Virus record (IMG/VR): IMGVR_UViG_3300032213_001925
Location: 1-30,766 of that record
Reading direction: 5' to 3' (one strand)
From: a virus
DNA length: 30,766 nt
Notes under the pieces: generated by a model
What the model was told of the DNA's origin: nothing
Database searches by the model: none
What the model saw: the letters and a program-made list of their open reading frames with translations, nothing else
Shown here: positions 3,706-24,922 of the stretch, in pieces
Layout: each line of letters begins with the position of its first letter
How positions within the stretch are numbered: the first letter of the stretch is position 1
Made by a program: the position numbers and the translations under genes

Positions 3706-3863
3706 TTCGTATCGAGCAACGTTTCCATGGCGTTGATTGCCGCCTTCAGCGTTTCGCGGATTTCCGCGGCTTCAATCGCCGGCAAATACCGCGCCCAGAA
3801 CTTGCGGTTGGCCCAGAGTAAGCGCAAATCAAAAAGCGCGTCTCGGATTTGTTTCTCGGTCAT
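3702..3863 (-). CDS. Hypothetical small helical protein (53 aa), intact copy of a duplicated gene
   Basis: The start at 3863 overlaps the ThyX stop by ATGA, giving MTEKQIRDALFDLRLLWANR and then a helix rich in Glu, Ala and Leu. The family is unknown. The first 41 bases of the gene recur with one mismatch at 4671-4711, where they begin a truncated copy. The intact copy ends in an ATGA overlap with the VRR-NUC gene. The pattern suggests that this gene was the original neighbour of the gene at 4708-5022 before the ThyX segment came between them. Confidence 0.6.
   Translation of the reverse strand: MTEKQIRDALFDLRLLWANRKFWARYLPAIEAAEIRETLKAAINAMETLLDTK
3823..3863. repeat. 41-bp direct repeat, copy A (start of the intact small gene)
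   Basis: Bases 3823-3863 match 4671-4711 at 40 of 41 positions. The repeat begins exactly at the start codon of a small gene and runs 41 bases into it. The two copies lie in the same orientation 848 bp apart and bracket thyX and a small membrane-protein gene. Confidence 0.9.
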
Positions 3864-4489
3864 AAAAGTTTGGCAATAGTTGGAAACTCGCCAGCAAAAA
3901 TGCGCTGCACCTCCTGCGCAACCTGGCGATGCTCTAACTGAGTGTGCTCGCTCAGGCGTTGCTGCAGATAATGGATCCATGAGCGGACGCTTCCAGTCAT
4001 GTAAAGCGTCGTCTGAGTGCAGAGTGGCAGGATCATTCTGGCGCATTCGCGGGCGACGCCTTTTTCCAATAGGTACTCATAATTGTCGATGGCGTCGTTA
4101 ATGTGCTCGCGCACCTCGTTCGTAAGTTTTTCGCTTCCAAAATCATCACTTGAAGATTGTCGATTAGTCCCAGCTTGTCGGCGAAGCTGCACCGGCTCAA
4201 AATCACTGGCCTCAGCGTACCGTTGCGAAAACTCCTGAAAAGTGAAGCTCCGGTGCCGCAAAAGCTGCGCTGCTATGGCGCGGCTAGTGACGACCTCCAC
4301 CGTCATAGACGCCGTCTCAAACACGGACCAGTGCCCATGCCGTATGCAGTACTGCAACAGACGCTCGCCAGTTTCGTGGTTGTCCTGGTTACTCGGGTTG
4401 CTCACGCGGGCGGCGTAGACAATCAGCGCCTGCGCGTCCGGGATGTTGCTCAGTCGCGGCTGAGATGTGGCAATAAGTCGGACGTTCAT
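3860..4489 (-). CDS. thyX: Flavin-dependent thymidylate synthase ThyX (209 aa)
   Basis: ThyX converts dUMP to dTMP using methylene-tetrahydrofolate, with reducing power passed through FAD. The ThyX signature RHRx7S is present: RHR at 78-80, Ser88 in RHRSFTFQEFSQRY. The C-terminal QQRLSEHTQLEHRQVAQE region matches the family's substrate-binding helix, and the length is normal for a phage ThyX. In the phage it would secure thymidylate for replication. The start follows the preceding small membrane gene in an ATGA overlap. The gene lies inside a segment bracketed by a 41-bp direct repeat, suggesting that it was acquired or moved as a cassette. Confidence 0.96.
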   Translation of the reverse strand: MNVRLIATSQPRLSNIPDAQALIVYAARVSNPSNQDNHETGERLLQYCIRHGHWSVFETASMTVEVVTSRAIAAQLLRHRSFTFQEFSQRYAEASDFEPVQLRRQAGTNRQSSSDDFGSEKLTNEVREHINDAIDNYEYLLEKGVARECARMILPLCTQTTLYMTGSVRSWIHYLQQRLSEHTQLEHRQVAQEVQRIFAGEFPTIAKLL

Positions 4490-11636: not shown

Positions 11637-14600
11637 TTAAGCGATCAAATTTCCTGAAGTTGTAAACGTGTGATAAGTATAACCGCCAGTGGTTACAATT
11701 GTTCCGCCTGTGCAGCGAGCGGCTCCAGTGTAGCGGATGATTGCAAGCCCGGATCCGCCGTTGGCTCCACTGAATGATCCACCAGCGCCGCCGCCACCTC
11801 CGCCAGTGTTGGCAGTGCCAGCAGTTGCGGCAGGTGTGCCTTGCAAACCACCAGCACCACCTCCGCCAGCTCCACCAGTGCCTGCAGTTCCGCCAGCGTT
11901 TACTCCGCCGCCGCCTCCGCCACCATAATACCCACTCGCACCAGTGCTCGTTGCAGTTGCCCACGTCGAGTAGGTGTTGGTGCCTGCGCCGCCGTTGCCA
12001 GCAACGCTACTTGATCCGCTTACAGACGCGCCAGCCGCACCGGCTCCTCCACCACCAGCACCAGGACCGCCGCTGCTTGTAGAATTGACGCTGCCGCCTG
12101 CGTTACCTTGGCCCGACGTGCCCGCGCCACCGGCGTAAGTTCCGCCGCCGGAACCGTAACCAGCGCCGCCGCCGGATCCTCCAGACACGCCCGCTGCCGG
12201 CCCTGAAGTGATATTGCCAGCACCACCGCCACCGCCTCCAATTGCGGTAGCAACCGGAGCGGAAAAACTAATCAGTGAGTTTCCACCTGAAGTCCCTTGC
12301 GTGCCGTTCACGGTTGATCCAGCGCCCCCAGCGCCGATTGAAATTGTGTAATTGGCTCCCGGCAAAACAACAAACGTGCCGTAATACACGCCACCAGCGC
12401 CACCGCCTCCCGAATTGGAACGTCCGCCACCAGCACCGCCAGCAATCAGCAGCACCTCGGCCAAAAAGGTTCCGCGATCCGTGAGCCATTTGTTTTCCGA
12501 CGCGGAATACGTAAGCTGCGCCAAATCGACAGGCGCCGTGGTTGCAATGGAATACCCGCGCAGCGCCTGTACCGACGCGGTCACGGATCCGGACCCAGAC
12601 GCAACCACGTCACCGGACAGCGCGGAAATCCCGCCGCCGCCGCCGATAATGCCCGCCGTCGTCACAGATGCGACGCGTCCAAACGCATCCACAGTAAGAA
12701 CGGGAACAACGCTCGAACTTCCAAACGTGCCGGCCGCGCCCAGCGTTGCCAGCGCGTGCGCGTGATCGGCTTTCGCCGCAAACAGTGAAGATCCAATTAC
12801 ACCAGCCGTCGTCAACGCCGCGGGAATCGCAGTGGACAACCCGGACAACTGCGCGGTTGTCAGCGCCGAGATTTGCACTGTGGTCAGCGCTGTAACGCGC
12901 CCCTTGGCGTCAATACTCAATTTGGGAACGACCGTTGCACTGCCAACGTTGCTCTGGGCGGTTGTAATTGCCGCCAGCGTCGGCGCCGGAAATGACCCCG
13001 TCAAATCTCCGGACGCAGGATCATAAGAACGGGAATATTGAAATTGCGCAACAGACGCTCCCACTTTGGTTTCGTAGGAAATCCCCGTCGCGTTGCTGTA
13101 ATTATTTCCAAGGGAGTAATAGTAAGTCCCAGCCACACCCGTCACAACGTAGTTTGTCGCGCCAGGCTGAATCGCAAAGCTGGATTGGTACACACCGACC
13201 ACGGATCCAGCGCCGGCAATGTTAATGCCGTTTCCAGTCGCAGCCAGGTTGGAAAACGCGGTAAAGCCAGCGGTGAACAGCGCCGTGGTACTTGTGATGC
13301 TAATTACGTTTGCGCCGGTGCAGGCCAAAAGCGAATTGCGAATCTCAGCGTACGGCTTAAGCGCGCCGTTTGTGCCGCGCATCAGCACCACGCACGTGCC
13401 GAACTCAGTGTTCAGCCCGTCCGCGTAAAGCGACCCACCATTGATATCAAAATGCGTGCCGCCGCTACCGGCTACTGCGTACGCATTGGATCGCAAATTA
13501 GTTGCCTTAACACTCACGTCCGGACCAATTAACACGCCGACGGATGACGTGTTGGACGACACGTTTTCGACAACACAATCTTGCAAATGCACAACGGACG
13601 AAACACCCGTTGCACTCGCCAGCGACAGAGTCGGCGTCGATGGGTTGTTAACAGTCAGTCGGATCCCACACACCTGCAACTGATTATTTGCCGCCGTCGC
13701 ACCGCCGGTAAACGCGTGCGTGCCAGTAATGCGCACCGTGCTCGTCTGCCCGTTGTTGTGTCCAATAGCGGACACCAGCACGCATCCGCGGAACGTGATA
13801 TTTTCGGTGTACAGTCCAGGCGGCACCAAAACCTGCGCCGGATTGGTATACGTCGCGTCCGAAAACAAATCAATACAACCCTGCACCGTCGCCGCATCCT
13901 GCCCAACAACTGCCGTGCGTGTAAATTTGTTAAGTTTGTTGCCGAGGTCTGTTGTCAGATTGGCAATTTTACTCTGCGCAATGCCTGCAGCCGCATCGAC
14001 ATCCGCATTTATTAGCAAACTCGCCGGCGTCTGGAAAATGGAATTTATGACTTTAGCAAGTCCCGTCCCAGACACGGACGGCAACGTGGTGTGCACGTGT
14101 GTCGGCGTTGAGGCCCCAAAGCTCAGCGTCACCGTGCGGTTGTTGGCCGTGGCTTTGCCAAGCAACTCAATGTAAAGCCGATCTGTCGCGAGCACCGTTG
14201 TTTGCGGCACCGTCAATGCCAAGATGTATTGCGCTGTCACTGACGGGTCGTACACGCTCACGTCGTCGGACGTTGCAAGTAACGTTAATGCGTTGGACGC
14301 GTCGTATTTGTACAAGCGCGCCTGCAAAATCGTCTGATTTGCTGAGTTTGCGTTAGACGACGCCCACAAATTAAAATCCCAAATGCCCGCCGGAATAGTT
14401 GTAACGCCGGGATCCCCCACAGCAGTTACAAATCCACGTACCAGCGTGTAATCCACTTGCGACAACGTCCCAGACGTCACCACGGACTGCAGCGATTCCG
14501 ACGCACGCCCGAGCGCCTTTGGTTCACCAGGTAAATTTGTCACCGGACTCGCACCAGCCTGCGCGGCGTTTAAAAAATAGGCAATTCCACCGCCGCCCGA

Positions 14601-16643
14601 TCCGCCCTGCGCCGGTGCGCCGGGAACCCACGCGGAACCCGTCCACGTCAGCACCTGCCCAGTGCTGGGAGCAACGTCAGCAACGCCGTGCGTCTGCAGC
14701 GCCGTGACCTTTAACGTCCCATCGTTTTGCGCGGCAACATCGCCGGAAACTGCGTGGACGTGATCCGCACGCGATGCGTCGGCGGACGTACCTGGCGCTG
14801 CGGTTGCGCCAAGCGCCGCGGGGTTTGCATCGGACAGCGTCACACCGGCCTGCGGGTCTTTAGGGCACCACTCGCCAGCGTCAAACGTCAACACCTGATC
14901 CTGCTGCGGCGCCATCATGGCCAGCGGATTTGCGCGCAAGCCCACCACCTGCACGTCGGTCCCGTTAAACGGATCAAATAAAGTGACGTCCCCTGTAATC
15001 GGATGTTGATGATCCGCCTGCGCAGCAAACCCACTCATCCCAACCACTCCGGCAGTCGTCAATCCAAGCGCCGGCAACGTGGAAAAATTCGCCACCGCTT
15101 CCGTGGTGATGCTGGTAAGCCGCCCAAACTCATCCACAGTCAAAACCGGGATGCCGTTGCTGCCACCAAACGTACCCGCCTCAATTGTGGTTGTAAGCGC
15201 GTGTACGTGATCGGCGCGCGAATAATCCGCGGACGTTCCTGGAGACGCCGTGCCGATGTTTTCCGGTTGCGCATTAGATGCGTCCGGACATGGATTTTCA
15301 TGGACGTGGTCGGCGCGCGCAAACTCTGCGGCATTGCCAGGCGCCGCAACGCCCAACGCTTGCGGCATCTCATCCGACGGTTTCAATACTCGCTGAATCC
15401 ATTCCGTACCCTGAAAAACAAGAGCGTAATCCGTAAGAATAGATTCATGTGTGGGCGCAAACGGATAGCCAAGAGCGCCCTGCACTTTCAGCGTCTCGCT
15501 TTCGCCAATTCCGACATCACCGGAAACCGGATGCCGGTGATCCCACGCAGCCGCCTCGGTGCCCGTGCCCGCGACACCAGCGGTTGCCAGGCCCAATGGC
15601 GCTTGTGTGCTCAACGCCGCACCACCCGTGCCAGTGATTTCCGCCGTCGTCACAGACGCCACCCGCCCAAACGCGTCCACCGTCAAAACGGGCACAATTG
15701 TGCCGCTGCCCCAAGTGCCAGGCTCGCCCAACGTCTGCAGCGCGTGCACGTGATCCGCGCGCGCGGCAAACAGTGACGTGCCCACAGCGCCAGATGTTGC
15801 CAGCGCCGCCGGCGTGCTCGTCGACAGCCCGGAAAGTTGCGCCGTGGTCAGCGCGGAAATTTGCACGGACGTGAGAGACGTCACACGACCCTTGGCGTCG
15901 ACGCTCACAAGCGGCACATGCGTAGCGCTGCCAACGTCGGATTTGGCTGTCGTTACATTGCCCAACGTCGGATTTGGATAGGTGCCAGTAAGGTCGCCAC
16001 CGGCGGATCCCGTAGGAACACGCGAGTCAGACAGCCGCGGGTCAGTTGTCGCAACACCACCAAGCGTCGAGAGGGAAAGATTCTGCACCTGCGACGTTGT
16101 AACACTAATGGCCTGCGCAGTCACCGCAACCGCACGCCCTTTTGTGTCCATCTGCAGGATCAACGTTTTGTCAGCCGCACCTGTGACGCCCGCGGTTCCA
16201 ACTGCGCCCAACGTCGGATTTGGATACGTGCCGGCCAGATCTCCACCAGCCGCGCCGCTTGGCGTCCGCGAGTCGGACAAGCGCGCATCGGTGGTTGCTA
16301 CGCCGCCCAATGTGGCGAGCGACAAATTTTGCACCTGGCTGGTCGTCACGCTAATCGCCTGCGCCGTCACAGCCAGCACGCGGCCCTTGGCGTCAGTCTG
16401 CAGCGTCAATGCTTGCGCAGCGCTGCCGGTAATTGCAGCAACGCCAACAGTGACAAGGGACGCCACGCTGTCCGTTGAGATTGAGATGTCACCCGTAATG
16501 CTTCCAACGCCACCAGCTGGCCCTTGCGGGCCCTGCGGCCCAACCGGACCCTCCGGACCTTGTACGCCCTGCTCACCCTGGATCCCAGGCGCTCCAGTCA
16601 GAAGAGTAACCACCAGCGGCCCACAATTGTTTTCGCAACTCAT
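11637..16643 (-). CDS. Large tail fibre / adhesin with collagen-like stem and glycine-rich tip (1668 aa)
   Basis: Order of parts: a short Cys-containing N-terminus; nine Gly-X-Y triplets (17-43); repeated modules with KGRV..VTAQAISVTTSQVQ and GGDLxGTYPNPTLG; seven DHxH motifs (297, 368, 445, 478, 544, 627, 1293); a middle domain (690-850); a beta-helix-like stretch (about 905-1200, beginning near QDAATVQGCIDLFSDA and VLVPPGLYTENITF); another DHxH module; and a Gly-rich domain (about 1400-1635) ending GLAIIRYTG. DHxH motifs recall the metal-binding HxH sites of trimeric T4 fibres, and Gly-rich tips are receptor-binding in several phages. It takes up a sixth of the genome and is the likely host-recognition protein. 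The leader has no Shine-Dalgarno sequence. Confidence 0.88.
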   Translation of the reverse strand: MSCENNCGPLVVTLLTGAPGIQGEQGVQGPEGPVGPQGPQGPAGGVGSITGDISISTDSVASLVTVGVAAITGSAAQALTLQTDAKGRVLAVTAQAISVTTSQVQNLSLATLGGVATTDARLSDSRTPSGAAGGDLAGTYPNPTLGAVGTAGVTGAADKTLILQMDTKGRAVAVTAQAISVTTSQVQNLSLSTLGGVATTDPRLSDSRVPTGSAGGDLTGTYPNPTLGNVTTAKSDVGSATHVPLVSVDAKGRVTSLTSVQISALTTAQLSGLSTSTPAALATSGAVGTSLFAARADHVHALQTLGEPGTWGSGTIVPVLTVDAFGRVASVTTAEITGTGGAALSTQAPLGLATAGVAGTGTEAAAWDHRHPVSGDVGIGESETLKVQGALGYPFAPTHESILTDYALVFQGTEWIQRVLKPSDEMPQALGVAAPGNAAEFARADHVHENPCPDASNAQPENIGTASPGTSADYSRADHVHALTTTIEAGTFGGSNGIPVLTVDEFGRLTSITTEAVANFSTLPALGLTTAGVVGMSGFAAQADHQHPITGDVTLFDPFNGTDVQVVGLRANPLAMMAPQQDQVLTFDAGEWCPKDPQAGVTLSDANPAALGATAAPGTSADASRADHVHAVSGDVAAQNDGTLKVTALQTHGVADVAPSTGQVLTWTGSAWVPGAPAQGGSGGGGIAYFLNAAQAGASPVTNLPGEPKALGRASESLQSVVTSGTLSQVDYTLVRGFVTAVGDPGVTTIPAGIWDFNLWASSNANSANQTILQARLYKYDASNALTLLATSDDVSVYDPSVTAQYILALTVPQTTVLATDRLYIELLGKATANNRTVTLSFGASTPTHVHTTLPSVSGTGLAKVINSIFQTPASLLINADVDAAAGIAQSKIANLTTDLGNKLNKFTRTAVVGQDAATVQGCIDLFSDATYTNPAQVLVPPGLYTENITFRGCVLVSAIGHNNGQTSTVRITGTHAFTGGATAANNQLQVCGIRLTVNNPSTPTLSLASATGVSSVVHLQDCVVENVSSNTSSVGVLIGPDVSVKATNLRSNAYAVAGSGGTHFDINGGSLYADGLNTEFGTCVVLMRGTNGALKPYAEIRNSLLACTGANVISITSTTALFTAGFTAFSNLAATGNGINIAGAGSVVGVYQSSFAIQPGATNYVVTGVAGTYYYSLGNNYSNATGISYETKVGASVAQFQYSRSYDPASGDLTGSFPAPTLAAITTAQSNVGSATVVPKLSIDAKGRVTALTTVQISALTTAQLSGLSTAIPAALTTAGVIGSSLFAAKADHAHALATLGAAGTFGSSSVVPVLTVDAFGRVASVTTAGIIGGGGGISALSGDVVASGSGSVTASVQALRGYSIATTAPVDLAQLTYSASENKWLTDRGTFLAEVLLIAGGAGGGRSNSGGGGAGGVYYGTFVVLPGANYTISIGAGGAGSTVNGTQGTSGGNSLISFSAPVATAIGGGGGGAGNITSGPAAGVSGGSGGGAGYGSGGGTYAGGAGTSGQGNAGGSVNSTSSGGPGAGGGGAGAAGASVSGSSSVAGNGGAGTNTYSTWATATSTGASGYYGGGGGGGVNAGGTAGTGGAGGGGAGGLQGTPAATAGTANTGGGGGGAGGSFSGANGGSGLAIIRYTGAARCTGGTIVTTGGYTYHTFTTSGNLIA
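12648..12941. repeat. Distal copy of a fibre module (about 98 codons)
   Basis: Codons for fibre residues about 1235-1332 repeat those for 239-336 (15636-15929). Shared runs include QISALTTAQLSGLST and VPVLTVDAFGRVASVTTA. The copies lie about 1000 residues apart with unrelated domains between them, so the module was duplicated or retained on both sides of a domain insertion. Confidence 0.75.
15636..15929. repeat. Proximal copy of a fibre module (about 98 codons)
   Basis: Partner of the copy at 12648-12941. It encodes DAKGRV, QISALTTAQL, the first DHxH motif and VLTVDAFGRVASVTTA. By eye about four in five residues match. Confidence 0.75.
15960..16154. repeat. Tandem fibre module, second copy
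   Basis: Fibre residues about 164-228. They repeat residues 82-146 (16206-16400): VTAQAISVTTSQVQNLSL, LGGVATTD, RLSDSR and TYPNPTLG recur in order. This is a coding repeat of the fibre shaft. Confidence 0.8.
16206..16400. repeat. Tandem fibre module, first copy
   Basis: Fibre residues about 82-146, directly before the second copy. The near-identity of the two modules suggests recent tandem duplication or homogenisation within the shaft. Confidence 0.8.
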
Positions 16644-19216: not shown

Positions 19217-20749
19217 TTACGCGTAAACAGGCGATCCGCCGGCGTTTTTTTCTGCAATGATTTTGAGCAAAATGTTGGTTTGCTCGGCTTTTCGAACCGC
19301 TTCCCGCTGCTGCTCTAATTGTTGACGCGCATACGTCGCGGCTTGGTCCTCACCTCGAAAAGTGCTCGGCCCAAATATGCTTCCGCCAATTTTTGCCAAC
19401 GAGCTTGCAAACTCAAATCCCGCTTTTGGTCCCTCAATTGGCTTTTCAATTTTTGCCACCACCGGAGTCTGAAACGGCGCTGCAAAATCGCGTTTCATTT
19501 TATCGGCCAAACTTTCGGGAAGCGGCCCAATAAAAGCAGACTCACCAGGAAGCGGCGCGCGTTTTAAGCGACCTTGCTTGGCGTCCTGCACAAACTTAAG
19601 TCCCACAAGTTCGTCCAATTGGCGTGTGAATTTTTTCCCCCAACTTTCGCCGGCTTTTGCTTCCTCAAACACCCTAGGCGCAGCAGCTTCAAGAATTTTA
19701 TTTCCCTCATCAGCGCGCGCCCGCGCTTCAGATTGCGAAACTCCACCGCCACCAAACCCGCCCATGCCCATGCCCATGTAAGCGCCGCCCGTAAAAGCCG
19801 ACTCGGTGCCTTTGCTGGCGGCCGCGGATTTGTCAATTAGTTTTCCAGCGCTCTCAATAATCCATTTGAACGGCATGATGATGCCTTCAATCAGCGTTCC
19901 AATTGGCGCGACGATAGATTCAAGTGCCGCAAATCCAACTTTAATTGCATTCATGGCGCTGAAAATCGACGCCGCAAATTCACGCCCAACGCCGGCCAAA
20001 TTTATTTCCTCAAACGCATCCACAAAGCCCTGCATTGACGGCCCGAGCTCGCTTGCGATGCCTACAAAAAAACCGCGCAATTTCATGCCAGCCTGGCCAA
20101 GCACATCCGTGGTCCTATCAAACAATTCCGCATTGTCCGCCAGCATTTTAGCCTGAGCGCCAACAATTTTTTCAGCGCCGGCCAACCCGCCAGAGCCAAA
20201 AAGCGCCAGCATTTTTCCGCCTGATTTGCCAAATATTTCCATGGCAACCGCGGCTTTTTGCGTCGGGTTTTCAATTTTGTTGATCGCGTCGCCAATTGCG
20301 GCCAACTGCTTTTCGGCATCCATTGCGCCAAGATTTGCAAGCGGGATTTCCAATGCGTCAAACGCCGCAACCGCACCGCCAACGCCAGAGCCAGCGTCTG
20401 CAATGGCTTTCTGCATTTTGTTAACGACGACCTGCACATCTCCAGCTGCAAGCCCGGCTTGCTCAAACGCAACCTTCAGCACGCTCAGTCGCTCAATTCC
20501 AACCCCGGTTTGCTCAGCCAAATCAAGCAAAGCGCCGCCCTCTTCCATCGCGGAATACATGCCGCGGAAGGCGCTTGTGACACCGCTGGCAATAGTCTGC
20601 GCTATGTTGCCGAGGTCTGTCCAGGTTGTCGTGATTTTTGACAAAAACCCGCCCGAAGAGGATTTCTCCAAATCGCGAAAACCTTGCGACGCCTTTTTGA
20701 TGCCGCCTTGAAAATCGCTAATGTCCAGACCAAGCTCGGCTTTGATCAT
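19217..20749 (-). CDS. Tape measure protein (510 aa)
   Basis: The protein starts MIKAELGLDISDFQGGIKKA, the usual opening of short phage tape measures. It is mostly helical, with hydrophobic segments around 280-310 (IVAPIGTLIEGIIMPFKWII), a Gly/Met-rich linker (YMGMGMGGFGGGGV) and a charged C-terminal helix (ATYARQQLEQQREAVRKAEQ). Tape measures set tail length, so 510 residues imply a short siphovirus tail. The place after the chaperone frameshift genes supports the call. The start overlaps the preceding gene as ATGA. Confidence 0.9.
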   Translation of the reverse strand: MIKAELGLDISDFQGGIKKASQGFRDLEKSSSGGFLSKITTTWTDLGNIAQTIASGVTSAFRGMYSAMEEGGALLDLAEQTGVGIERLSVLKVAFEQAGLAAGDVQVVVNKMQKAIADAGSGVGGAVAAFDALEIPLANLGAMDAEKQLAAIGDAINKIENPTQKAAVAMEIFGKSGGKMLALFGSGGLAGAEKIVGAQAKMLADNAELFDRTTDVLGQAGMKLRGFFVGIASELGPSMQGFVDAFEEINLAGVGREFAASIFSAMNAIKVGFAALESIVAPIGTLIEGIIMPFKWIIESAGKLIDKSAAASKGTESAFTGGAYMGMGMGGFGGGGVSQSEARARADEGNKILEAAAPRVFEEAKAGESWGKKFTRQLDELVGLKFVQDAKQGRLKRAPLPGESAFIGPLPESLADKMKRDFAAPFQTPVVAKIEKPIEGPKAGFEFASSLAKIGGSIFGPSTFRGEDQAATYARQQLEQQREAVRKAEQTNILLKIIAEKNAGGSPVYA

Positions 20750-21483
20750 AACTTTTTTTGTTTGGTTGCCGCGTCGTTTGCTTGCTTGAGCATGTTGTTG
20801 GCCTGCTTGCGCAACGCTGAATTTACGCGCAGTTGCACTGAAAAGTCGTAATCCGTTGGATTAATTCCAACAAAACTGAAACCGGTTTCCAAATTGCTAA
20901 CCATTGCGGTCCCTTTGTTTCCTGAACTCCAGCGTTTTATCCATGCAGGAACTCCGCGCACGTTCAGTTTTTGAGCCAAATTTATCCAGCCTGCCGGCCC
21001 AAATCCTTGGCGTTTTAAAAGCGCGCGTTGCAATCGTTCCAATTTCGTCCAAAGAATTGGACGTTTTACAGAAGCACGCACGCGTTTGTTTTTTCCACGT
21101 TGCGACAAATGAAATTCAAGCAAACTTGATTCTGACGCCCGCAAATTGTCCTCAGCAGACATTCCGCCAAAACCAAAAGTGGCGTTGTATTTTTGCCATG
21201 CTGGAGAACCTCTTCGCAAACCTTTTATAAATTGCGGATCCACTGATTTGAAAACGCGGCGAATATCTCGGATAATTCTAATTTCGCCGCGTTTTTTGCC
21301 AACAGCGTAAGAAGTTGGCTCTCTCCCACCCATTGGAGGCGTAAGTTGAATTATATTTCGCACCACAAGCGCAAATTGTTCTGTGGCAAGTTTTTGAAAT
21401 GTTTTTCGCGATCCGCGCGAGTAAATTTCAAACGCTTGCCGAAATGCGTTGTTTGCGTTGTCCCAATCAATCTTCGCTTTCAT
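20746..21483 (-). CDS. Tail protein between chaperones and tape measure (245 aa)
   Basis: The start at 21483 (MKAKIDWDNANNAFRQAFEI) overlaps the end of the frameshifted chaperone frame by 17 bp. The protein is basic and largely helical at both ends, with a middle rich in Arg/Lys (SQRGKNKRVRASVKRPI). It resembles minor tail or completion proteins in its helical N-terminus followed by TPP and SYAVGKKRGEI, but no family is secure. Its position suggests a tail assembly role. Confidence 0.6.
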   Translation of the reverse strand: MKAKIDWDNANNAFRQAFEIYSRGSRKTFQKLATEQFALVVRNIIQLTPPMGGREPTSYAVGKKRGEIRIIRDIRRVFKSVDPQFIKGLRRGSPAWQKYNATFGFGGMSAEDNLRASESSLLEFHLSQRGKNKRVRASVKRPILWTKLERLQRALLKRQGFGPAGWINLAQKLNVRGVPAWIKRWSSGNKGTAMVSNLETGFSFVGINPTDYDFSVQLRVNSALRKQANNMLKQANDAATKQKKL

Positions 21484-22014
21484 TCGGACGCGCTGCAAAA
21501 AGTTCTTCCAGCCTTCCCATGTCCTGCGCCTTTTGTTTTACGGTCCAGGCGCCGTTCACCCAAAGCGCGGCGTGATAGTAACTTAGGAGTCGTGTCAACG
21601 GCATGTCTGTAATCATGTTTTCAGGCCAGCCAGTTTCGCGCGCAACGGCCAGGACGACGCTTGCGCGCCAGCCCGGCCCAATTAGTTTCCCGGCGCTCGC
21701 GAATCTGGCGGATGCTGCGGGACAACGTCAACGCGGGCCTCATCAATTGCTTTTGTCTGAGCGCCACACCATTCAACCACCGGCCGCACCAACGCCAGCG
21801 GAAACGAGTCCGAAAACGTTTCAATTTCAGCCAACAGTGTTCCACGTTCGATGCTCTCTCGGACCTCGCGCGGCTCCATGTTTTGGATGCAAGCCACTGC
21901 CAGCGCCTGCCGCGGCACGCTTAGTTTTTCTAACGCAAGCGCCTCAATTGCTTCCTGCGTCGTCATGCTCCAGGCCCGCAGCGAAAAAGGCCCAATGTTT
22001 GTTCGCGCGATCAT
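21467..22014 (-). CDS. Frameshifted tail assembly chaperone, gpGT-like (about 182 aa by -1 shift)
   Basis: A -1 shift at GGGAAAC (21685-21691), directly before the TAA of the upstream frame, continues into an open frame of 72 codons ending at 21467: LIGPGWRASVVLAVARETGW, then MPLTRLLSYYHAALWVNG. This second frame has no good start of its own near the junction, and the LTRLLSYYHAALW part resembles downstream tail-chaperone domains. In lambda-like phages a few percent of ribosomes shift at G GGA AAN to make gpGT, which together with gpG coats the tape measure during tail assembly. The shift efficiency here is not known. Confidence 0.78.
21682..22014 (-). CDS. Tail assembly chaperone, gpG-like (110 aa)
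   Basis: This is the unshifted product, starting MIARTNIGPFSLRAWSMTTQ and ending SRAPGN before TAA. It is helical (ALALEKLSVPRQALAVACIQ) with an acidic middle. It lies between the tail tube and tape measure genes, exactly where lambda G sits, and its last codons form the slippery site GGGAAAC. The start overlaps the previous stop as ATGA. The assignment rests on position plus the frameshift signal. Confidence 0.75.
   Translation of the reverse strand: MIARTNIGPFSLRAWSMTTQEAIEALALEKLSVPRQALAVACIQNMEPREVRESIERGTLLAEIETFSDSFPLALVRPVVEWCGAQTKAIDEARVDVVPQHPPDSRAPGN
21685..21691 (-). promoter_or_regulatory. Slippery heptamer GGGAAAC for programmed -1 frameshifting
   Basis: On the minus strand the frame reads CCG GGA AAC TAA, giving a perfect X XXY YYZ site (G GGA AAC). 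The lambda G/GT site is GGGAAAG. The stop codon immediately after the A-site codon would favour a pause. The -1 frame then stays open for 72 codons. Confidence 0.78.
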
Positions 22015-22445
22015 AAAAAGCGGGCGGCAAATTCAAGTTTAAGCCACTCGGGCGAGTTTGGATAAATAATCCCATGCCCGCGCGCGTCGCGCTTAAGCAC
22101 GCCAACGCCCGCGTTTTTGGCAAACCGCTTTAGGTCGCGCGCGTTGTCGCGGAATGCTCTCGCAATGGAGATTTGCGAGTCCGGATTGTCTTCGCACCAG
22201 GCTTGATCCGCAAAACGTTTGCGAAACGTGTCCCAATCCATTTTAACGCCGTCAACGTCCGCTTTGATGTCGTCGTTAATTAACCATTGCACCCAGCGCC
22301 GGTCACCATCCATCGCGTGTTGAAAGCCACCGCTTTGCATCAGGCTGCCGCCAAAAGTCAGCCAGGCGGCGACGAGATCTGTGTTTTCCGATTTTGCCGG
22401 GTCCTGCTCGTCTCGCAGGATCCCAATATTTGTGGTCGTTTTCAT
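22011..22445 (-). CDS. Hypothetical tail-module protein (144 aa)
   Basis: The protein starts MKTTTNIGILRDEQDPAKSE and is charged and mostly helical, with aromatic patches (RRWVQWLINDD, KMDWDTFRKRFADQAW). It begins 3 bp after the stop of the second tube-like gene and overlaps the chaperone start as ATGA. Its place between the tube and gpG suggests a tail assembly factor. No family is recognised. The leader is A/T-rich without a Shine-Dalgarno sequence. Confidence 0.6.
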   Translation of the reverse strand: MKTTTNIGILRDEQDPAKSENTDLVAAWLTFGGSLMQSGGFQHAMDGDRRWVQWLINDDIKADVDGVKMDWDTFRKRFADQAWCEDNPDSQISIARAFRDNARDLKRFAKNAGVGVLKRDARGHGIIYPNSPEWLKLEFAARFL

Positions 22446-22448
22446 TTT

Positions 22449-22763
22449 TTAACTGCCTGCGTGCGGATAAATTGTGGCCTGCAAACTCCATCCGCGGAAA
22501 TCGTCGTTTTTAGAATTTTTGGTCGCCGTTGTCACAATGCCCTTGCCGCTAGCACCAGTCACAGAAATGGCATCGCCTGCAGCAATTGGGCATTCATCGC
22601 CCTTTCCGGATGCGGAAAACGAGTACGATTTGTCATACGTTTGCGCAGCGTAATGCCCGCCATCCGAGTCAATAAGCTGCCTGAACTCAGCTTTAAGCTC
22701 AAGGTCGGCGGACTCAACCACAACGCCAGAAGGCGCAAAAATTGTAATTCCAAAGGAAGCCAT
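22449..22763 (-). CDS. Tail-tube-like protein, second paralogue (104 aa)
   Basis: The start at 22763 (MASFGITIFAPSGVVVESAD) is the ATG. A TTG three codons upstream is less likely. The pattern FG..IFAPSG..ES near the N-terminus and a Gly/Ser/Thr-rich beta body parallel the neighbouring gene at 22765-23064, so the two look like diverged tandem copies. Position before the tail chaperones and size suit a small tail-tube or tube-decorating protein. It has a Cys and a KGDECPIAAGD turn lacking in the partner. Confidence 0.6.
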   Translation of the reverse strand: MASFGITIFAPSGVVVESADLELKAEFRQLIDSDGGHYAAQTYDKSYSFSASGKGDECPIAAGDAISVTGASGKGIVTTATKNSKNDDFRGWSLQATIYPHAGS

Positions 22764-22764
22764 A

Positions 22765-23064
22765 TTAAGCAAAAAGCGTATAGGTTGTACTGCTTAAAAC
22801 AAAATCATCGTTGGATTCTGTGATTTTTGCCGAGGTAACGGTCGCGCCACTAAACGCGCCTTCGGGCACAGCATCTAAATCTTTTTCGCCCTTACAAGTG
22901 CAAGTTGTGGTGGTTGTTGAACGCGGTTTTGCCTGAGCTACAACCGTTTTGCCGGTTGAATCCCGAATGGTTGCAACTTCCACAGTTTGCTCAGCAGAAG
23001 ACTCTTGCAAATAGCCGCTTGGTGCTGTGACTCCAAAAACGTCAGCTCCGAATGAAATTGCCAT
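22765..23064 (-). CDS. Tail-tube-like protein, first paralogue (99 aa)
   Basis: The protein starts MAISFGADVFGVTAPSGYLQ and is beta-rich, Thr/Ser-rich and slightly acidic. The central STTTTTCTCKGEKD segment is probably an exposed loop. It shares FG, APSG, ES and NDDF landmarks with the next gene. It lies where lambda V (major tail tube) is expected, after the tail terminator candidate and before the chaperones. A major tail tube role is likely but inferred. Confidence 0.65.
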   Translation of the reverse strand: MAISFGADVFGVTAPSGYLQESSAEQTVEVATIRDSTGKTVVAQAKPRSTTTTTCTCKGEKDLDAVPEGAFSGATVTSAKITESNDDFVLSSTTYTLFA

Positions 23065-24043: not shown

Positions 24044-24922
24044 TTACTCGGCAACGATGCGGATGCCCATTTCCACGCGGCCCGCCTGGACGCCGTAAAG
24101 CACACCAAACGTGTAGTTCAGCGACCCGCCGAGGTTGTCGTAAAAACGACGGAACTGCACCGGAAGGTTGAGCCCTGGCACAACCACATCGGCAACTTCG
24201 GTGCCCATTTGCTGCGCGCCGGACGCGTCAACGCGACGAGCGGCCATCAGCAGTGCAGATTTGTGGAACGCAAACCCACCCAGCCCCTGTCCGTTGGCGT
24301 CGGCAAGGTCGGATTCGTACACGTCAAACCCAGCGACGCGCGGGATGTAACCTTCGGTTTTTTCGCGGATGAATCCGGGAAACTCAGCGGTATTAAGACT
24401 CTTAACCAGCGACGCAAAATAAGTCGGGTTCAGCACCACAGCGCGGCCCATTTGAGGAGCACCCAACGCGTTCAATTGAGCGCGAAGGTCGGCAAGGTCG
24501 TCGCGATCAAAATTTCCGGCGTTGATGCCGACGGAATTGAAATTGCTGGACGTCACTAGGTTCCACAAATCACCAAAAACCTTTGCACCGGTCGCTTGCA
24601 AAGCGGGCTCAACAAACAACTGATTCAGGTCAATCGCGCTTTTGGAACGCTCTAGGTCGGTGAACCCATAAGGGAACCCGTAAAAATTGGAAAGCGTGAT
24701 GGTTTTTGCAACCGTTTCCACGCCCTGCGGCGAGTAACCGTTGGACAGATCCACGGCAGTCGGCTTGACGGGGTAACGAGTCGTCACGGACGCGCCGGCC
24801 GCAGAAATATCGGTGGAAAAATCAGCGGTGATGGCGTTGAGCGGCGCAAAAATGTTTTGCAACGCTGGGAGACTTTCTTGCGCGATGGCAGCGAGGTTAA
24901 CCCCCGCAATGGTATTGCTCAT
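24044..24922 (-). CDS. Major capsid protein (292 aa)
   Basis: The protein starts MSNTIAGVNLAAIAQESLPA and shows an HK97-fold-like pattern: a long acidic N-terminal region, FYGFPYGFTDLERSKS, VVLNPTYFASLVKSLN (spine helix), a loop with YESDLADANGQGLGGFAFHK, and a C-terminal LGGSLNYTFGVLYGVQAGR like P22-type and HK97-type coats. It follows a protease and a coiled-coil scaffold candidate. The leader has no Shine-Dalgarno sequence and ends AAACAT. The 3' end carries strong hairpins. Confidence 0.85.
   Translation of the reverse strand: MSNTIAGVNLAAIAQESLPALQNIFAPLNAITADFSTDISAAGASVTTRYPVKPTAVDLSNGYSPQGVETVAKTITLSNFYGFPYGFTDLERSKSAIDLNQLFVEPALQATGAKVFGDLWNLVTSSNFNSVGINAGNFDRDDLADLRAQLNALGAPQMGRAVVLNPTYFASLVKSLNTAEFPGFIREKTEGYIPRVAGFDVYESDLADANGQGLGGFAFHKSALLMAARRVDASGAQQMGTEVADVVVPGLNLPVQFRRFYDNLGGSLNYTFGVLYGVQAGRVEMGIRIVAE

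Follow-up and report, generated by a model that had tools for sequence, protein, structure and literature searches.

A GGGAAAC slippery site followed by a stop codon and a conserved hairpin probably directs −1 frameshifting in a putative tail assembly chaperone gene of a virus of probable verrucomicrobial hosts

Genes and features at the junction

The window (that is, the whole stretch of DNA that was analysed) is a 30,766-base IMG/VR virus record whose late genes lie on the minus strand. Read along this strand, genes for packaging, portal and protease functions are followed by the capsid gene, by small head-tail genes, and then by genes for proteins of 144, 110 and 246–250 amino acids and for the tape measure protein (Table 1). 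The putative terminase, portal and protease genes upstream of the capsid gene were identified by eye and through synteny with phage P8625. The ATG of the 110-amino-acid gene overlaps the stop codon (TGA) of the 144-amino-acid gene upstream of it.

Table 1. Coordinates of the features discussed in the text and the evidence on which each of them rests.
Feature	Position	Strand	Evidence
Major capsid gene	24922..24044	−	PHROG 283
144-amino-acid gene directly upstream of the 110-amino-acid gene	22011..22445	−	co-conserved with the G/GT pair
0-frame gene (gpG-like), 110 amino acids	21682..22014	−	homologues in all relatives
Slippery heptamer G_GGA_AAC	21685..21691	−	in-phase XXXYYYZ at the junction, 43 of 43 clusters
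0-frame stop TAA, directly after the heptamer	21682..21684	−	stop at the same codon in 32 of 43 clusters
Downstream stem-loop	21647..21678	−	MFE versus shuffles; same register in L009; covariation in the family
−1 frame extension (T-like), 72 post-shift codons and a TGA stop	21467..21684	−	reading frame, dN/dS, relatives
246–250-amino-acid gene between the pair and the tape measure gene	21498 or 21486..20746	−	homologous to P8625 gp14
Tail tape measure protein	19217..20749	−	PHROG 8462 (E 7e-20); 25% identity to P8625 gp19

The 110-codon frame ends with ...GCG CCG GGA AAC TAA. Hence, GGGAAAC stands in X_XXY_YYZ phase and TAA is the very next codon, precisely the perfect slippery heptamer right before a stop codon that an initial annotation of this DNA had pointed out. 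The −1 frame reads GK LIGPGWRASVVLAVARETGWPENMITDMPLTRLLSYYHAALWVNGAWTVKQKAQDMGRLEELFAARPNESED* and continues for 72 codons after the shift up to a TGA that ends at position 21467, so that its last 20 nt or so lie within the beginning of the gene that follows. Its first ATG, GTG or TTG is an ATG at position 21616, 75 nt downstream of the start of the heptamer and beyond the conserved ARETGW core. Both the earlier statement that this frame is open over 72 further codons and looks like a real protein, and the statement that it has no start codon of its own, are thus borne out, the former by the open frame together with the purifying selection described below and the latter by the position of this first potential start.

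The same annotation had placed the gene between those for the tail tube and the tape measure protein, as in lambda. Its location upstream of the tape measure gene holds, but the 246–250-amino-acid gene separates the two here, which it does not in lambda, and homology searches did not identify the tail tube. The homologues of this intervening gene, P8625 gp14 and a gene of the Akkermansia phage Moulinsart (7740–8510), are found further upstream in their genomes, near the capsid genes, and it is for this reason that the gene order of the window departs from that of lambda.

Three further observations concern the surroundings of the pair. Upstream of the 144-amino-acid gene, two tandem, overlapping genes for proteins of about 100 amino acids (22449–22772 and 22765–23064, minus strand) show a weak relationship to one another when compared across relatives (E 0.004–0.009); neither had a family match, and their sequences suggest a duplicated small tail protein, possibly that of the tube. 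A 1668-amino-acid ORF (11637–16643, minus strand) with a collagen-like start, repeated units of the ADHVH type and a long glycine-rich C-terminus probably encodes a tail fibre. In addition, a 209-amino-acid ORF (3860–4489, minus strand) resembles by eye a flavin-dependent thymidylate synthase (ThyX).

Conservation of the heptamer, the −1 frame, the stop codon and the hairpin

A search with the whole fusion yielded one near relative (L002; 96%), a search with the neighboring 144-amino-acid gene two more distant loci, and tblastn the Akkermansia phage Moulinsart. An alignment of five extensions then led to 79 loci in IMG/VR and seven in bacterial genomes; the patterns used for these searches (AR[EA]TGW[TP]E and [LM]xY[YHV]HA[AW]L[WV]) lie inside the extension and exclude the heptamer. 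The resulting 91 loci form 43 clusters that share less than 90% nucleotide identity with one another. All seven of the bacterial genomes belong to the Verrucomicrobiota and the relatives with named organisms, Akkermansia included, are verrucomicrobial as well; the hosts of the virus are probably verrucomicrobial bacteria. Our search of the literature found no text on frameshifting in phages of this group.

Each of the 43 clusters has an in-phase heptamer at the homologous junction; the chance of finding a perfect one at a given position is about 1/256. The sequence was GGGAAAC in 23 clusters, CCCAAAC in 14 and AAAAAAC in three, with CCCAAAA, CCCTTTA and GGGAAAG found once each; Moulinsart, the cultured relative, carries AAAAAAC. 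In one locus (L086), the slip site lies 3 nt upstream of where the alignment places it. The first triplet of the heptamer varies en bloc (GGG, CCC or AAA), and both GGG and CCC occur inside one related group. Such block changes are expected under selection for slippage; without it, they would be difficult to account for.

The −1 extension is under purifying selection. Its median dN/dS is 0.089, close to the 0.077 of the 0-frame part, as calculated from 33 cluster pairs that share ancestry and are hence non-independent; for the nearest pair, the window and L002, dN is 0.036 and dS is 0.147 over the extension. The initial annotation had stated that a −1 frame lacking conservation in relatives, with equal synonymous and nonsynonymous change, would refute the frameshift; the proposal withstood this check, as the −1 frame and the heptamer are conserved in all 43 clusters.

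In 32 of the 43 clusters the 0-frame stop is the codon directly following the heptamer (TAA in 13, TGA in 12 and TAG in seven), and in six more it follows one codon later. Resampling of the −1 frame codons that overlap the site among their synonyms (5000 trials) predicted 15.4 ± 2.6 adjacent stops and reached a maximum of 24, with the clusters treated without correction for ancestry; the adjacent stop is present in most of the 14 single-linkage lineages. The rare leucine codon CTA creates the stop in 20 of 39 clusters, compared with a share of 5.5% among CTN leucine codons at the extension's remaining positions, and none of its other leucine columns shows a CTA excess of this kind. Related pairs that differ at this codon exchange one stop for a different stop in 26 cases, a stop for a sense codon in 32 and a sense codon for another in five. 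The adjacent 0-frame stop is thus under selection, yet it is not obligatory. In the distant relatives L073–L075 (CCCTTTA) and L086 (GGGAAAG), the 0-frame stop is found about 10 codons downstream, and adjacency of the stop is consequently not universal.

The region downstream of the heptamer folds into a hairpin. In the window, the stem comprises 13 pairs with one 1x1 mismatch, is separated from the heptamer by a 6-nt spacer (TAATTG), and has an MFE of −25.1 as compared with −16.2 ± 3.2 for shuffles of synonymous codons; a second, longer fold is in competition with this stem. Across the family, the 40-nt segment starting 5 nt past the heptamer has a mean z of −2.88 against synonymous-codon shuffles, with values below −1.5 in 38 of 43 clusters. 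A structure 5–9 nt downstream is common, though not indispensable, at programmed −1 frameshift sites, and the spacer here is 6–7 nt. Most relatives share a stem of 12 pairs (alignment columns 14–25 with 40–51). In the gap-free alignment of 39 clusters, 88.5% of the cells in this stem are paired, as opposed to 36–46% when the partner strand is slid, and 40 cells have changed on both sides, a number that compares with 13.4 in shuffled alignments and was reached in none of 500 shuffles. Pair 20–45, for instance, is seen as GC, CG, GU, UA and AU; in most rows, column 45 falls on the silent third position of a threonine codon. In the window and L009, the register is a different one (columns 14–27 with 32–45; column sum 59 instead of 65) with a span that is six bases shorter, and these two sequences differ from each other by a compensatory GC/CG change within it. 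RNAalifold recovered only five of the hairpin pairs from the whole alignment; it was the count on the named helix that showed the covariation. The hairpin, which had no Rfam family match, is thus conserved with compensatory changes. A Shine-Dalgarno-like stimulator upstream of the heptamer, as known from some bacterial frameshift sites, gave no clear signal in the family (mean duplex energy −4.97 versus −4.36 in shuffles) and none in the window (−1.8 versus −2.9).

Collectively, the heptamer, the coding capacity of the −1 frame, the placement of the stop codon and the hairpin are all under selection. Since the heptamer, the stop codon and the hairpin are kept across relatives, the frameshift signal is real, and a programmed −1 frameshift at GGGAAAC is, as judged from the sequences, very well supported.

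Candidate function of the products and alternative explanations

The initial annotation had regarded the two products as a chaperone pair similar to gpG/gpGT. The approximate position and the architecture of the gene agree with this proposal, while profiles and predicted folds yielded no significant match to a chaperone. Pfam had no match for either part of the pair, and the sole PHROG hit, a weak one, was to PHROG 978 'tail assembly chaperone' (E 0.04; one member). A PDB sequence search with G and with the extension returned no meaningful match, and the G and T proteins of lambda, N15 and HK97 did not rise above background in profile comparisons. G and the extension were folded apart. The predicted model of G (mean pLDDT 90) consists of an N-terminal β-hairpin and helices; it had no PDB fold match below E 0.5, and in a viral library it best matched a phage protein that is uncharacterized (48% identity), while the N15 GT model came at rank 6 (prob 0.44). 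One fold match, to the chaperone of HCTV-1, was insignificant (E 5). A small helical domain with an acidic and proline-rich end before the slip site fits a chaperone of the G type.

Homology to lambda T, for which GKVF..LAREMG had been picked out by eye, was rejected: hhalign gave a probability of 5.5% (rank 49 of 5001 against shuffles), and with the family profile the true T was not among the top five of the six-frame lambda ORFs. P8625 (L006) possesses a gene just before its tape measure gene, gp18 (11917–12537), that carries in a single frame an end motif (VAHRYG...LDWPLNRIFQLQKAI) resembling the −1 extension, and from this sequence gp18 may be a chaperone made without frameshifting. As a natural in-frame fusion of G and T, gp18 was set aside, with motif resemblance only, an hhalign probability of 1% and a position outside the top five.

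The most serious alternative accepts the frameshift and holds that its products are another pair of tail or head-tail proteins made in a fixed ratio. It draws on the absence of any significant similarity to known chaperones, whether in sequence or in fold, and on the fact that the gene just before the tape measure gene is the one for the 250-amino-acid protein. Known tail chaperones are highly diverged, and sequence homology is helpful for recognizing them but not defining. Against this alternative, −1 frameshifted genes encoding two proteins and located upstream of the tape measure gene are widely conserved in tailed phages and specify tail assembly chaperones in lambda and many others (PMC5009743); the helical domain with its acidic and proline-rich end, the weak fold match to N15 GT and the weak PHROG 978 hit also argue against a different kind of pair. 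We consider this alternative rather unlikely. Provided that the shift is real, the G/GT pair probably represents tail assembly chaperones.

A quite improbable alternative is that the downstream frame encodes a separate small protein with its own internal start, translationally coupled to the stop codon of G, and that the heptamer is incidental. An ATG, GTG or TTG does precede the core in the −1 frame of 26 of the 43 clusters, and the annotation of phage Moulinsart draws the extension as a gene of its own. However, such a start is missing from the other 17 clusters, the window among them, and where present its place varies without conservation (mostly +18 to +48), in contrast to the heptamer, which every cluster has; internal initiation is therefore not a general explanation. 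In addition, protein-level conservation (KLIxPGW) extends over the region between the heptamer and the potential starts, and it is at the heptamer that the matches set in.

Transcriptional instead of ribosomal slippage, on a run of A or G residues, has very little in its favour. Although AAAAAAC is present in some relatives, 37 of the 43 clusters carry GGGAAAC or CCCAAAC, runs that are too short for polymerase slippage, and a conserved hairpin at a spacing of 6–7 nt as well as the requirement for an in-phase heptamer fit slippage by the ribosome. Finally, a sequencing or assembly error that split one gene without any recoding could be suspected from a single-base frame break adjoining a stop codon, but this reading is refuted by the relatives, as the same break and a slippery heptamer recur in 91 loci, which come from numerous independent assemblies and from an isolate genome; the probability of this reading is negligible.

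A model for the G/GT pair and its relation to known systems

We consider it highly probable that one gene gives rise to two proteins through a programmed −1 frameshift; judged by position and architecture, these probably serve as a tail assembly chaperone pair. In this model, the majority of ribosomes would read GGA AAC and halt at the adjacent UAA, thereby releasing the 110-amino-acid G-like protein. A minority would slip by −1 on G_GGA_AAC, on which tRNA-Gly and tRNA-Asn would pair anew with GGG AAA, and would then read 72 more codons to yield a GT-like fusion of 182 amino acids (...RAPGN-LIGPGW...). The stable hairpin 6 nt downstream, positioned at the mRNA entrance, would slow the ribosome, and the stop as the next codon would set termination in competition with slippage. 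G would bind the tape measure protein, while the C-terminal domain of the rarer GT would bring in tube subunits.

The combination of a weak heptamer with a selected stop codon deserves comment. G_GGA_AAC is a low-efficiency heptamer in Escherichia coli (PMC4066793), and it is used in IS elements and in the g-t genes of haloarchaeal viruses (PMC4066793, PMC5009743). Published average stop distances for tail chaperone frameshifts of phages are 26 and 36 nt (PMC10885494). In reporter studies on an HIV-1 site, release factors could compete with slippage when the next codon was a stop, also in bacteria (PMC4373837). The adjacent stop may thus act as a throttle on shifting, or it may simply provide a clean end for G. 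As a possible but rather doubtful reading, we tentatively put forward that these phages use a distinct form of the tail-chaperone frameshift, tuned by release factors. With a heptamer of low efficiency in E. coli (AAC as its second codon) right before a selected stop, slippage would occur while the stop codon occupies the A site and the hairpin lies in front; the G:GT ratio, and through it the assembly of tails, would then be set by the release-factor activity of the host.

The closest counterpart is the G/GT pair of lambda. There as here, a short protein read in the 0 frame and a fusion extended in the −1 frame share one start, upstream of the tape measure gene. The lambda heptamer, GGGAAAG (G_GGA_AAG), is near-identical to GGGAAAC and differs in its Z base (G in lambda, C here); the lambda extension begins with GKVF...LAREMG, collinear with GKLI...VARETG here (LAREMG and VARETG stand almost equally far from the heptamer), with no significant profile homology between the two. 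The lambda 0-frame stop follows the heptamer after 15 nt, while it does so after 0 nt in the window. The g-t frameshifts of the haloarchaeal viruses HCTV-1, HCTV-2 and HCTV-5 occur in archaeal hosts, and the one sign of similarity to the pair described here was the insignificant fold match to the HCTV-1 chaperone. In P2-like phages, the E and E+E' proteins likewise derive from a tail gene with a −1 extension, located between the genes for the major tail protein and the tape measure protein. Their heptamer is TTTTTTG and lacks a downstream hairpin, in contrast to the covarying one found here; downstream structures have been called rare in phage tail frameshifts (PMC3091744). A heptamer that is directly followed by a stop codon, as in the window, is known from Rous sarcoma virus and barley yellow dwarf virus (PMC4373837), eukaryotic viruses whose proteins are unrelated to those discussed here.

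With the frameshift pair, a strategy already known from phages gains a further member whose signal is unusually well defined, and the selected stop codon and the covarying hairpin render it more informative than most. It adds to the conserved frameshifting of tail genes a family without Pfam matches, with one weak PHROG hit and with at least 43 sequence clusters, and it provides a bacterial comparative case in which the heptamer, the stop codon following it and the hairpin are each visible under selection. For annotators, the finding means that two ORFs now called separately or missed should be joined. The alignment also makes the competition of bacterial −1 shifts with termination directly testable.
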